This document shows positions 19,103 through 23,877 of a stretch of DNA of 64,000 bases, piece after piece. Position 1 is the stretch's first letter, and each line of letters opens with the position of its first letter. The stretch comes from Akkermansia sp. RCC_12PD (GTDB lineage: Bacteria; Verrucomicrobiota; Verrucomicrobiia; Verrucomicrobiales; Akkermansiaceae). The notes beneath the pieces were generated by a model. That model worked only from the letters and a program-made list of their open reading frames with translations. It did no database searches and had not been told where the DNA came from. The stretch lies in assembly GCF_036417355.1 (NCBI RefSeq), contig NZ_CP143889.1, forward strand, positions 434,001 through 498,000, read 5' to 3'. Made by a program: the position numbers and the translations under genes.

Positions 19103-20086
19103 ATGAATTCACATTCGTCATCCTGGAGTCCTTTACCCCCACTTCCCGATCCGGAAGGGTTTGCCGGCATGTATGCGGGAACCCACAGAAATATTCTTAT
19201 TTGTGCAGGCGGAACGAATTTCCCCGGCAAGCCCATGCTGGAGGGAGGCGTCAAAACCTGGACGGACCGTGTTTTCACCCTGGAGCCGGGAAGCCCTGCG
19301 TGGCGGGAAGCTGGCGTACTGCCTTCGCCGTATGCCTACGGAGCGTCCGCCAGCCTGGAAGACGGCCTGTTGTGCATCGGCGGATGCGACCAGAAAGGCC
19401 ACCGCAGGGATGTTTACCTGCTGGGAGTTTCCGACGGGACCTTGATCGTCTCCGCTTTTCCCTCCCTCCCAGTCGCGCTGGCCTACACGGCGGCAGCCGT
19501 GCTGGACGGCAAAGTGTACCTTACGGGCGGCTGTGAATACTCCGGAGAGCAGGACTGCACCAACCGGATGTTCATGCTGGATTCCGCGAATCCCGGCCAA
19601 GGCTGGCAGGAACTTCCCGCACTGCCCGGGAGAGGCCGCTTCCTGCACCAAATGGCTTCGGTTAACGGTGTTCTGTACGTCCTGGGCGGCATCGGCCTGA
19701 AAGAAGAGAACGGCCGCCAGGTCCGGGAACTACTGACGGAGGCATGGAGCTTCACCCCTTCCGGCGGATGGACGCGGCAACCGGACATGCCTTATGCCAT
19801 TGCAGCCGCGCCCACTCCGGCCCCAGTCTCCCGGAGCGGGGTCATCTACCTGCTGGCCGGGGACGACGGCTCTGGCAGGAAATACACGCCGCAGACCAAT
19901 CCCGGCTTCAACAACCAGTCCCTGTGCCTGGACACGGCAACGGCGGAATGGCACGACGGAGGCCCTATCGGAGCACCGCGGGCGGTGCTTCCCTGCTGCG
20001 CCTGGGAAGGCCGCTTCATCGCGGTCAACGGCGAACTTAAGCCCGGCAGACGCTCCCCCGAAGTCTGGAGCATTTCCCTTTCCTGA
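19103..20086 (+). CDS. Kelch-repeat sialic acid mutarotase-like protein
   Basis: 327 residues with repeated Kelch strands: ILICAGGTNFPGK, GLLCIGGCDQKG, KVYLTGGCEYSG, VLYVLGGIG and GVIYLLAGDD, each with the GG signature at intervals of about 50 residues, forming a six-bladed propeller. The arrangement matches the cyclically permuted mutarotase family related to NanM, which converts the alpha to the beta anomer of N-acetylneuraminate. No signal peptide is present, unlike NanM, so a cytoplasmic location is likely. It ends 26 bases before a second Kelch gene fused to a transporter, so the two are probably cotranscribed and serve sialic acid handling (inference). Confidence 0.78.
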   Translation: MNSHSSSWSPLPPLPDPEGFAGMYAGTHRNILICAGGTNFPGKPMLEGGVKTWTDRVFTLEPGSPAWREAGVLPSPYAYGASASLEDGLLCIGGCDQKGHRRDVYLLGVSDGTLIVSAFPSLPVALAYTAAAVLDGKVYLTGGCEYSGEQDCTNRMFMLDSANPGQGWQELPALPGRGRFLHQMASVNGVLYVLGGIGLKEENGRQVRELLTEAWSFTPSGGWTRQPDMPYAIAAAPTPAPVSRSGVIYLLAGDDGSGRKYTPQTNPGFNNQSLCLDTATAEWHDGGPIGAPRAVLPCCAWEGRFIAVNGELKPGRRSPEVWSISLS

Positions 20087-20112: not shown

Positions 20113-22665
20113 ATGACGCACTCCTCACATTACCTGGATCGGTTCACCAAGACATGGTGCGCGGTCCTCGCCTGCCTGATGCTGACGGCTGTCCCGACCG
20201 CCCACGCATCCTTTTCCGTGGATGTCCATTCCGCCGGCAGCATTCCTGACCTGCCCGATCCCGTGGGGCGCGCTGGCATGATTGCCGGGACCGTGACGGA
20301 AAAAGACGGCTCCCAGTCCATCATTGCCGCAGGAGGGGCCAATTTCCCGAATGCCGCTCCCGGAGCCGCCACGCCGGAGGAACGCGGCCCGAAGGCGTAC
20401 CACCGGGATATTTTCAAACTCACCAACGGACAATGGAACAAAGTCGGCAGCCTGCCCGTTCCGCTGGGTTACGCGGCATGCGCCAGCGTCGGCAAGGGCG
20501 TGGTGCTGGCCGGCGGCCACAATGAAGAGGGCATTTGGCAAGGCACCCTGCTGATCAAGGCGGACGGGTCCGTGGAAAAGCTTCCTTCCCTTCCCCGCCC
20601 CGTGACGGAAGCCGCTTTCGTCGGTTCGGGAGACAAGTTCTATGTCATCGGCGGACGGGACCGGGACGAACCGGAAGCGGCCCTGAATACCGTGTACGTG
20701 CTGGACACATCCCCTGAAACGGCCAGCATGGAGTGGAAGACTCTGCCTCCGTTCCAAGGTCCGGGGCGCATTCTTGCCACCGCCGCCTTTTCCGACAGCA
20801 CTCTCTTCCTGGTGGGGGGATGTTCCCTTTCCAAAAATGCCGCAGGAGAAACGGAGAGGACCTACCTTTCCGACCTGATCGACTACGATCTAGGCTCCAC
20901 GAACCCCGCCGAGTGGGGGCGCATGAAGAAGGAGCGCACCGGTCCCGGAACGCCTGTAGCGGCAGCGGCCGGCCCCGCCCCCGTCAAGGAGAACACCATC
21001 ATCCTGATTGGCGGGGACAAGCGCGGTAACTCCCCGGACCCGTCCAGGCCCGTGATGCAGTCCAGGGACATCCTGGCCTATGACATTGTAAAGGATGAAT
21101 GGAGCCGCCTGGGGGAATGGCCCGCAGGCATCGCCACGGCCCCTGCTGTCACACGAGGCAATGAGATCATCACCATCAGCGGAGAAACCGCTCCCGGCGT
21201 ACGTACTCCCGTGAACGCGTCCGCAACCGCGGGATACCATTTTGAGATGAGCACGGTGGACTATGCCGTTCTCATCCTCACGGTCATCGTCCTGGCCATC
21301 ATCATCATTTCCGCCGTGCGCAACGGCGTCAGGAACGTCTCCGCCGTCACGGATCCGAACACCAGGCCCGGTCTGTGGGCCTGGGTGGCCGTCATCGTGC
21401 TGTGGTTCGTCGTGATGCTGAACTACTTTGACCGCCAGCTTCTTTCCGCCCTGCATGAACCCATTGTACGGGACATTCCCCAGACGGAGGCCCAGTTCGG
21501 CATGGTTACCTCCGTCTTCCTGCTGATTTACGCGCTGCTCAGCCCGGTAGGCGGATTTCTGGCGGACCGCTACAGCCGCCGCCTGATGATTCTCTGTTCC
21601 CTGGTTGTCTGGTCCGTAGTCACCTGGTGGACCGGGCACGCGGAGGATTATACCTCCCTGCTCATCGCCCGCGGGGCCATGGGCATCAGTGAGGCCTTCT
21701 ACATTCCCGCCGCGCTGGCCCTGATCACGGACTACCACCGCGGCAGCACACGCTCCATCGCCACGGGCCTGCACATGAGCGGGATTTACGTGGGCATGGC
21801 CATCGCCGGATTCGGCGCTACCATGGCTTCCTGGACGGGCTGGCGCATGACCTTTGCCCTGTTCGGTCTGATCGGCGTGGCTTACGCCATCGTCCTGATC
21901 CTGTTCCTGAAAGACCCCGGCAAGGCGCCCGCGGACACGGCCCTTGCCCGGAAGAAGGACAAGCCCGGGGAAGAAACCGTATTGATCAATGTGGACAACG
22001 ACGAACAGACAGTAAAGCTTCCCGCGTCCAAGCTTTCCACAGGTGCCGTCCTTTCCAGCCTGCTGAGCGGACGCCCCATGTGGATGCTGCTTTGCGTGGT
22101 AGCCTTTGCGGGAGCGGGCAACTGGTTCCTGCTGACGTGGTACCCCACCCTGCTGCATGACCAGTACCACCTTTCCTCCGCGGAGGCTGGCCCCGCCGCC
22201 ACGCTCTGGAGTTCCATTGCCAAATACATCGCGGTGCTGGGAGGCGCCATTCTTGCGGATATGTGGTACAGGCGCAATACCCGCGCACGCGCGCTGGTAC
22301 CGGGCATTGCCTTCAGCATATCCGGCCCGCTGGTCGTCCTGGCGCTGCTGCCCGGTATCTTCGGCTGGGACATTGCGGTCCCTCTGGTGCTCATGCTCGG
22401 TTTGGTGGCCACGCAGGGGCTGGCGCAAGGATCGCTGGACGCCACCCTCATGCCTGTGTTACGCTCCCATATTGACGAGCGTTACTCTGCCACCGGCTAT
22501 GGTCTCCTGAACCTTACCTCCGCCGGGGTGGGCGCGCTCATCTCCTTCTTCGGCGGCTGGTTCAAGGACCAGGGTATCCCCCTGACCACGACCCTGGCCG
22601 CTGCCGGATGCCTCATGCTGTTCTGCGGACTTCTGCTCCTGATGCTGCCGAGGCCCAGGCACTGA
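20113..22665 (+). CDS. Fusion of a periplasmic Kelch mutarotase domain and an MFS transporter
   Basis: 850 residues. A signal peptide (CAVLACLMLTAVPTAHA) precedes a six-bladed Kelch propeller (residues 35-370; blades at IIAAGGANFPN, GVVLAGGHNEEG, KFYVIGGRDRD, LFLVGGCSLS, IILIGGDKRG, IITISGE). One transmembrane helix follows (about 384-405, YAVLILTVIVLAIIIISAV), then an MFS domain (about 420-850) with NYFDRQLLSALHEPI in helix 1 and GGFLADRYSRRLMIL as the helix 2-3 loop. The extra helix brings the chain from the periplasm to the cytoplasm so that the MFS part has its usual orientation. Inference: sialic acid anomer conversion directly coupled to uptake. Transport substrate and energy source are not shown by sequence. 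Confidence 0.82.
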   Translation: MTHSSHYLDRFTKTWCAVLACLMLTAVPTAHASFSVDVHSAGSIPDLPDPVGRAGMIAGTVTEKDGSQSIIAAGGANFPNAAPGAATPEERGPKAYHRDIFKLTNGQWNKVGSLPVPLGYAACASVGKGVVLAGGHNEEGIWQGTLLIKADGSVEKLPSLPRPVTEAAFVGSGDKFYVIGGRDRDEPEAALNTVYVLDTSPETASMEWKTLPPFQGPGRILATAAFSDSTLFLVGGCSLSKNAAGETERTYLSDLIDYDLGSTNPAEWGRMKKERTGPGTPVAAAAGPAPVKENTIILIGGDKRGNSPDPSRPVMQSRDILAYDIVKDEWSRLGEWPAGIATAPAVTRGNEIITISGETAPGVRTPVNASATAGYHFEMSTVDYAVLILTVIVLAIIIISAVRNGVRNVSAVTDPNTRPGLWAWVAVIVLWFVVMLNYFDRQLLSALHEPIVRDIPQTEAQFGMVTSVFLLIYALLSPVGGFLADRYSRRLMILCSLVVWSVVTWWTGHAEDYTSLLIARGAMGISEAFYIPAALALITDYHRGSTRSIATGLHMSGIYVGMAIAGFGATMASWTGWRMTFALFGLIGVAYAIVLILFLKDPGKAPADTALARKKDKPGEETVLINVDNDEQTVKLPASKLSTGAVLSSLLSGRPMWMLLCVVAFAGAGNWFLLTWYPTLLHDQYHLSSAEAGPAATLWSSIAKYIAVLGGAILADMWYRRNTRARALVPGIAFSISGPLVVLALLPGIFGWDIAVPLVLMLGLVATQGLAQGSLDATLMPVLRSHIDERYSATGYGLLNLTSAGVGALISFFGGWFKDQGIPLTTTLAAAGCLMLFCGLLLLMLPRPRH

Positions 22666-22695: not shown

Positions 22696-23877
22696 ATGAA
22701 GACACCTGCACGCAACTGCCTGACTGCGGGGGCCCTGTGTTTCCTGTCCCTGCTTTCCCCGGCGGAAGGCCGCACCTGGACCAACACCCAGGGAAAAACC
22801 CTGGAGGCCGAATTCGTCAAACTGGACGGCCAGAAGGCAGTGCTGACCCGCGCCGGAGGCCAGACGGTAACCATTCCCCTGAACCAGCTTTCCGAGGCGG
22901 ACCGGAACTTCATCGCGGAACAGGGAACGGGAGCTCCCCCCTCCAACCCAGCAGACAATTACAAGCAGCCCTGGCCCAGAACCGTCAAATGCCCGGACAA
23001 TTTCAAGGTGGAAACCATCAAGGAGGAAAAAGGGGAATATATTTACGAGACGCCCCATTTCCGCTTTATTTGCGACGCCAAGCTGGGCGCAGGCATGATC
23101 AAGCGGCTGGGCCTCCTGTTTGAAGCCACCCACCTGGCCAACAAAACGCTGCCCATCGGCAACATTCCGCCCCATGACGATTCCGCCAAATTCCCGGCCT
23201 ACCTGTACGAAAAGTTCAGCACCTATCTGGAAAACGGGGGGCTCGAAGGAACGGCGGGCATTTTCCTGGGAACCACGCGGCCGGGGGACCGGGGCAGAAT
23301 TCTGGTGCCTTTCCAGTCACTGGGCGTCAAGTCCATGGGGAGCACGTACATCATTGACCGGGACAAGGATTCCACCACCCTCATTCACGAACTGACGCAC
23401 CAGCTCATGTCTCCGCAGGCCAAGCAGGCCAGCTGGTTCTGCGAGGGGTCCGCGGAATATGTGGCCATGACGCCCTATGCCGGGGGCCGCTTCAACTTCG
23501 GCGCCAACCGCTCCCACATCGTTTCCCGCGTTACGGAGTACGGCAAGAAAAACACGGGGGGCCGCGCCCTGGGGGACGATTTTGAGGCTCCCGGCCTGGA
23601 GGCCTTCATGAACATGCCCTACACCCAGTTCACGAGTGAAAACGCCAATCTTCACTACGGCCTGGCCGCACTGATGGCCTATTACTTCTACCACATGGAT
23701 GGAAAAGGGGACGCCCAGCGCATCAAGAATTATATGAAGGCCATTCAGTCCGGCACCAGTGAAAAGGAGGCGCAGAAACTCCTTCTGGACGGCAGGACCT
23801 ACGAGGAACTGGCCAAGGAGATCGAGCAAAAATGGCGCAAGGCGGGCGTCAAGATCCGCTTCCGCGCCTCTTCCTGA
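22696..23877 (+). CDS. Secreted zinc peptidase-like protein with N-terminal SHD1 domain
   Basis: 393 residues. A signal peptide (CLTAGALCFLSLLSPAEG) is followed by an SHD1 domain (RTWTNTQGKTLEAEFVKLDG, then VTIPLNQLSEADRNFI), then a peptidase-like region with LIHELTHQLMSP (about residues 230-241), an HExxH zinc site, and a downstream FCEGSAEYVAM that could give the third (glutamate) ligand of a gluzincin (DUF1570-like). Start ATG 22696 is 30 bases after the Kelch-MFS gene, so it may be the last gene of that operon. A proteolytic role on host or envelope proteins is inferred; no substrate can be named. Confidence 0.72.
   Translation: MKTPARNCLTAGALCFLSLLSPAEGRTWTNTQGKTLEAEFVKLDGQKAVLTRAGGQTVTIPLNQLSEADRNFIAEQGTGAPPSNPADNYKQPWPRTVKCPDNFKVETIKEEKGEYIYETPHFRFICDAKLGAGMIKRLGLLFEATHLANKTLPIGNIPPHDDSAKFPAYLYEKFSTYLENGGLEGTAGIFLGTTRPGDRGRILVPFQSLGVKSMGSTYIIDRDKDSTTLIHELTHQLMSPQAKQASWFCEGSAEYVAMTPYAGGRFNFGANRSHIVSRVTEYGKKNTGGRALGDDFEAPGLEAFMNMPYTQFTSENANLHYGLAALMAYYFYHMDGKGDAQRIKNYMKAIQSGTSEKEAQKLLLDGRTYEELAKEIEQKWRKAGVKIRFRASS

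Follow-up and report, generated by a model that had tools for sequence, protein, structure and literature searches.

A NanM-type propeller fused to an MFS transporter in Akkermansia: a probable sialic acid importer with a built-in periplasmic mutarotase

One gene of Akkermansia sp. RCC_12PD encodes an 850-residue protein in which a NanM-type propeller and an MFS transporter share a single chain, and the whole is best explained, with good confidence, as a probable inner-membrane sialic acid importer carrying its own periplasmic mutarotase. This reading is preferred because both propellers of the locus score above the NANM cut-off and retain the catalytic Glu and Arg, lyase genes are linked to the transporter in relatives, lyase and epimerase genes are present in the genome, BNR genes occur as neighbors, the propellers are paired, and the propeller is under selection. 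Counted against it are the location of the lyase away from the cassette, scores below the TIGR03547, TIGR03548 and sialate symporter cut-offs, the absence of NanE, and published culture work (PMC7459334; PMC12955465). The parts of the protein, its topology signals, the conserved residues, the lyase linkage and the purifying selection can each be read from sequence. The gene lies in a stretch of 64,000 nucleotides (the window) from a single-contig genome of 3.17 Mb, which relatives from a GTDB scan place within Akkermansia. Its features, numbered from the first letter of the window, are listed below.

19103-20086, + strand: Kelch1, a stand-alone NanM-type propeller of 327 residues without a signal peptide (PF24996, 7.4e-34; NanM alignment)
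20033-20035 and 20051-20053, + strand: codons for the catalytic-type E311 and R317 of Kelch1 (alignment to permuted E. coli NanM)
20113-22665, + strand: fusion gene for signal peptide, NanM-type propeller, link helix and MFS transporter (open reading frame, Pfam, model)
20113-20208, + strand: signal-peptide-like N-terminus, residues 1-32 (hydropathy; also in 93 of 101 Kelch2 proteins)
20209-21240, + strand: six-bladed Kelch propeller, residues 33-376 (PF24996, model)
21184-21186, + strand: codon for Glu358, aligned with the catalytic Glu of E. coli NanM (precursor 228, mature 209)
21202-21204, + strand: codon for Arg364, aligned with the catalytic Arg of E. coli NanM (precursor 234, mature 215)
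21253-21324, + strand: transmembrane link helix, residues 381-404 (model, hydropathy; retained in split relatives)
21373-22662, + strand: 12-helix MFS transporter, residues 421-850 (PF07690, Foldseek)

The initial annotation had read this chain as a signal peptide, a complete six-bladed NanM-like Kelch propeller, one helix and a full MFS transporter, and the uninterrupted open reading frame, Pfam, AlphaFold2 and hydropathy agree on that composition. The AlphaFold2 model (102 aligned sequences as input; mean pLDDT 88.4, pTM 0.85) has 24 strands at residues 35-376, that is, the six blades of four expected of the NANM family, followed by one helix at 381-404 and 12 long helices within 421-843. 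The propeller matches Pfam NANM (PF24996) at 5e-28, and residues 430-755 match MFS_1 (PF07690) at 3.9e-47 and 161 bits; this profile match and the 12 transmembrane helices place the second half in the MFS. By hydropathy, a hydrophobic N-terminal segment covers residues 16-34 with a cleavage-like AHA-S end, and the link helix (residues 384-402) has the highest hydrophobicity of all segments (3.04). Most loop charges obey the positive-inside rule with the propeller outside and the N-terminus of the transporter inside, which fits the earlier argument that one linking helix is needed to combine a periplasmic propeller with a transporter in normal orientation.

Both propellers pass the PF24996 gathering cut-off of 45 bits, the fusion with 98.4 and Kelch1 with 117.6. 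Alignment with permuted E. coli NanM shows the catalytic Glu and Arg retained as E358 and R364 in the fusion and as E311 and R317 in Kelch1; the former pair is invariant among seven fused proteins (alignment A1). The corresponding NanM residues, E209 and R215 in mature numbering, are reported to be catalytic (Severi et al. 2008). The fusion thus has its propeller family and catalytic pair in common with E. coli NanM (YjhT), but its propeller is circularly permuted. Neither propeller is filed as a member of the NCBIfam mutarotase families: the TIGR03548 cut-off of 243.2 bits compares with 88.9 for the fusion and 142.5 for Kelch1, and the TIGR03547 cut-off of 256 with 84.3 and 102.6. Generic Kelch models named for galactose oxidase also match, but a galactose oxidase-like propeller was rejected, since NANM scores best and the catalytic residues are retained; the proposed NanM-like identity is supported by the score above the NANM cut-off and by the same residues. 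Between the window and a relative with 96% identity, dN/dS is 0.087 for the propeller within the fusion, indicating purifying selection; the linker has 0.053 and the transporter 0.020.

The best Foldseek match for the transporter is the E. coli D-galactonate:H+ symporter (9.9e-15). Human sialin also appears in the structural match lists, one of which chiefly probed the transporter half, so that the absence of 2UVK from it carries no weight. In a ranking of MFS family models the D-galactonate model is best (151 bits), and the NanT-type sialate:H+ symporter model TIGR00891 gives 53 bits against a cut-off of 552.9. E. coli NanT is an MFS carrier as well, with distant similarity (26% over 196 residues). 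Such results could mean that the fusion handles another acidic sugar or a sialic acid relative (KDN, anhydro-sialic acid or galactonate-like acids) and that the propeller acts on the same compound, as might the finding that KDN is another substrate of NanM and YhcH (PMC8141875). We consider this quite unlikely, because the NanM catalytic residues are retained and genes for N-acetylneuraminate lyase and GlcNAc 2-epimerase are repeatedly found linked to the transporter.

That linkage bears out the sialic acid context proposed at the outset, as lyase genes adjoin this transporter in relatives. A lyase gene shares the locus with a helix-less MFS relative in 29 of 44 loci, and lyase-linked propellers with MFS transporters are seen in Verrucomicrobiota and Sphingobacteriaceae alike. 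The fused gene is directly followed by an N-acetylneuraminate lyase gene in two loci (L095 and L108), with a GlcNAc 2-epimerase in the second as well; another locus (L145) has the order lyase-epimerase-MFS. The candidate sialic acid role of the fusion is therefore well supported by genomic association. Within the genus the lyase genes do not adjoin the cassette: a lyase-GlcNAc 2-epimerase pair is found in nearly all genus genomes examined, and in the window genome the two are neighbors at 2.988 Mb, apart from the cassette. This lyase partner (L031 8006-8923, Amuc_1946-like) keeps, in alignment to E. coli NanA, the active-site residues of that enzyme: the Schiff-base Lys, the Tyr and the Asp-Glu/Ser contacts. 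It scores under the NCBIfam cut-offs (NF003164, 152.7 versus 281; TIGR00683, 137 versus 382), and these lyase models outrank dapA.

NanE, the epimerase of the canonical nanATEK pathway, gave no match over its cut-off in 59 genomes, a further difference from E. coli. The gene beside the lyase encodes an N-acylglucosamine 2-epimerase, which would give GlcNAc directly. The Bacteroidota-type lyase-epimerase-MFS arrangement (B. fragilis nanLET, mentioned in PMC7459334) has the same lyase and GlcNAc 2-epimerase route and a related MFS; however, its transporter has 12 helices without link helix or propeller, and its genes are clustered, whereas those of Akkermansia are dispersed. A sialidase-like BNR gene adjoins the cassette in many split Akkermansia, and the one inspected carries four Asp boxes and begins with a leader-like segment. 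Away from the cassette, a second GlcNAc 2-epimerase-family gene stands beside a BNR sialidase-like gene (G000:C1:1565758-1568628; L083), and this pair is present in the window genome and in G004. It has also been raised as possible that sialic acid decorates the cell envelope (PMC12955465), in which case the imported sugar would not be food. The retention of lyase and epimerase in nearly all genus genomes examined makes this very unlikely, as does the CTP-transferase-3 count: each genome has a single full-length gene, quite possibly KdsB, and some have a weak partial match besides, so that the genomes checked for this family showed no additional gene that is clearly a CMP-sialate synthetase.

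The initial annotation had advised a domain search over verrucomicrobial genomes to gauge the spread of the fusion. Of 51 genomes sampled from the genus Akkermansia, 16 have it intact (G000, G002, G004, G010, G013, G028, G029, G080, G083, G086, G089, G119, G136, G150, G165 and G289), and several of these are single-contig; its open reading frame is 96% identical in an independent genome. Outside the genus it occurs in an Akkermansiaceae genome (L091), an Opitutae bin (L095) and a bin labelled Proteobacteria (L108). One further genus fusion is cut by a contig end. That assembly or sequencing error joined two genes might be suspected from their separation in most relatives within the genus, but the same fused frame in 16 genus genomes and the three outside lineages refutes an artefact in the main, and we reject it as vanishingly improbable. 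In a seventeenth genus genome (G017; L045 3451-6059), otherwise complete, the propeller frame is broken near residue 210, either a real loss or a sequencing error. A fusion in Pelomonas aquatica has a damaged or mis-assembled transporter: its open frame runs from a propeller into the front of an MFS and then the back of a lyase (L115 4706-8713), through either a deletion or an assembly collapse between adjoining genes.

The other genus genomes encode propeller and transporter in neighboring genes. What looks like an internal stop there closes the propeller gene, and the transporter gene starts after a short gap, in many cases of 15, 18 or 21 bases; both genes are in one frame in 20 of 26 split cases examined, which come from related species and so are not independent. 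Every complete split transporter has at its N-terminus an additional hydrophobic helix that corresponds to the link helix, and more distant MFS relatives have 12 helices only. In a tree of 109 transporter domains the helix-bearing ones form one clade (support 100) whose deepest branches are fused; the sole helix-less label inside it (G031) belongs to a contig cut within the gene. At least seven fused/split switches are required on this tree, which was built by a quick method and has some long branches, so that the order of events is provisional. The pattern points to an early origin of the fusion within this clade and to later splitting in many species; on the simplest reading, helix and fusion would have arisen together, many lineages split later, and a few re-fused, such as G010, whose junction resembles a short deletion of the intergenic gap. 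In two Opitutales-like genomes of the same class (L187, L188), a split transporter with link helix adjoins a propeller that has diverged strongly (22-56 bits) and looks to be decaying or taking on another function.

Function does not depend on the fusion, because most Akkermansia species have the halves as separate genes, and direct channelling is likewise dispensable, because sister species do without the fusion. A serious rival, to which we give somewhat less than an even chance, accepts the substrate and holds the fusion to be mechanistically meaningless: co-transcribed neighbors would fuse and split with little effect, an unlinked propeller serving equally well. The number of switches, the commoner split form in the genus and the small intergenic gaps all speak for it. 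Against it stand the retention of the link helix in every complete split transporter examined and the clade near the window species, where all sampled members stay fused bar one with a broken propeller; both observations are also compatible with neutrality. This rival is compatible with a sialic acid importer and opposes only the idea, suggested by the architecture, that the propeller would hand its sugar directly to the transporter.

Kelch1 ends 26 bases ahead of the fusion, and hydropathy shows no hydrophobic leader at its N-terminus, as the initial annotation had noted of this separate gene; the protein is probably cytosolic. By a simple hydropathy rule, and with some loci being duplicates, signal-peptide-like starts are found in 93 of the 101 Kelch2 proteins versus 5 of 88 Kelch1 proteins adjoining a Kelch2, and in 29 of the 31 Kelch proteins that occur singly. 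In loci with two propellers, one predicted to be exported and one not thus appear systematically paired, which supports the suggestion that one mutarotase acts on each side of the membrane. YhcH/NanQ is a cytosolic anomerase (PMC8141875), so its role equals that proposed for Kelch1; the two proteins are unrelated. As YhcH is present in only 5 of 37 genus genomes, that of the window included, and was not seen in the other 32, Kelch1 could supply the internal anomerase activity in most of the genus and add to that of YhcH here. Replacement of a missing YhcH by Kelch1 was rejected for the window species, whose genome has YhcH, and is possible for most of the genus.

E. coli NanM strongly accelerates the lyase in vitro, raising its turnover, but is a periplasmic protein that works ahead of NanT (PMC8141875; PMC10017367); inside the cell E. 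coli relies on YhcH (PMC8141875). There the periplasmic mutarotase and the MFS symporter are separate proteins and here they are one chain, with the same expected order of action. In the importer reading, sialidases would release alpha-N-acetylneuraminate, the tethered propeller would act on it as a periplasmic mutarotase like NanM, and its import would fall to the MFS part, which is probably a proton symporter. Inside, the leaderless Kelch1 may help to reopen the ring for N-acetylneuraminate lyase, and the lyase and GlcNAc 2-epimerase encoded elsewhere would yield pyruvate, ManNAc and GlcNAc. In this scheme we infer the substrate, the preferred anomer, the coupling ion, the role of Kelch1 and any benefit of the physical link. 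A more elaborate version, which seems unlikely, is a two-sided anomer relay: the propeller would pass beta-sialic acid directly into the tethered outward-facing MFS, the leaderless propeller would open the ring inside for the lyase, and fused/split switching with the link helix kept would tune the coupling. If true, the ring form of sialic acid would be controlled on both membrane faces.

A. muciniphila was reported to release sialic acid but not to use it, which was ascribed to a missing Nan cluster (PMC7459334). In a 2026 study, free sialic acid built up and then fell late in Akkermansia cultures by a mechanism left open; lyase Amuc_1946 and epimerase Amuc_1947 are named there, and no transporter is (PMC12955465). 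The cassette, conserved in the genus with lyase and GlcNAc 2-epimerase, is a candidate for the missing importer, and the fusion suggests an import route for mucus bacteria that have long been described as non-users of sialic acid. Mutarotases, sialate carriers of the MFS and the operons that contain them are already known; what is new is a variant arrangement of known parts. No description of a NanM-MFS fusion turned up in the literature searched, and an earlier mention by Severi et al. (2008, 2021) is possible. Fused and split sister species offer a natural experiment on whether tethering the enzyme to the transporter aids uptake.

Other Verrucomicrobiota of the same order carry a NANM propeller in one chain with a sodium:solute symporter (SSF, PF00474) at L037 5981-8476, L038 4535-7246, L039 5633-8242, L040 4652-7354 and L041 2563-4920, and a lyase adjoins in L037, L040 and L041. 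The same propeller family again stands upstream of the transporter, but the transporter superfamily is different, so this is an independent instance of the same idea and a parallel solution. Downstream of the window's own fusion, beginning 30 bases after it, lies a gene for an SHD1-domain protein with a HELTH metallopeptidase-like motif (22696-23877, + strand), kept in species near that of the window (84-96%) and looser in L091, L062 and L181.
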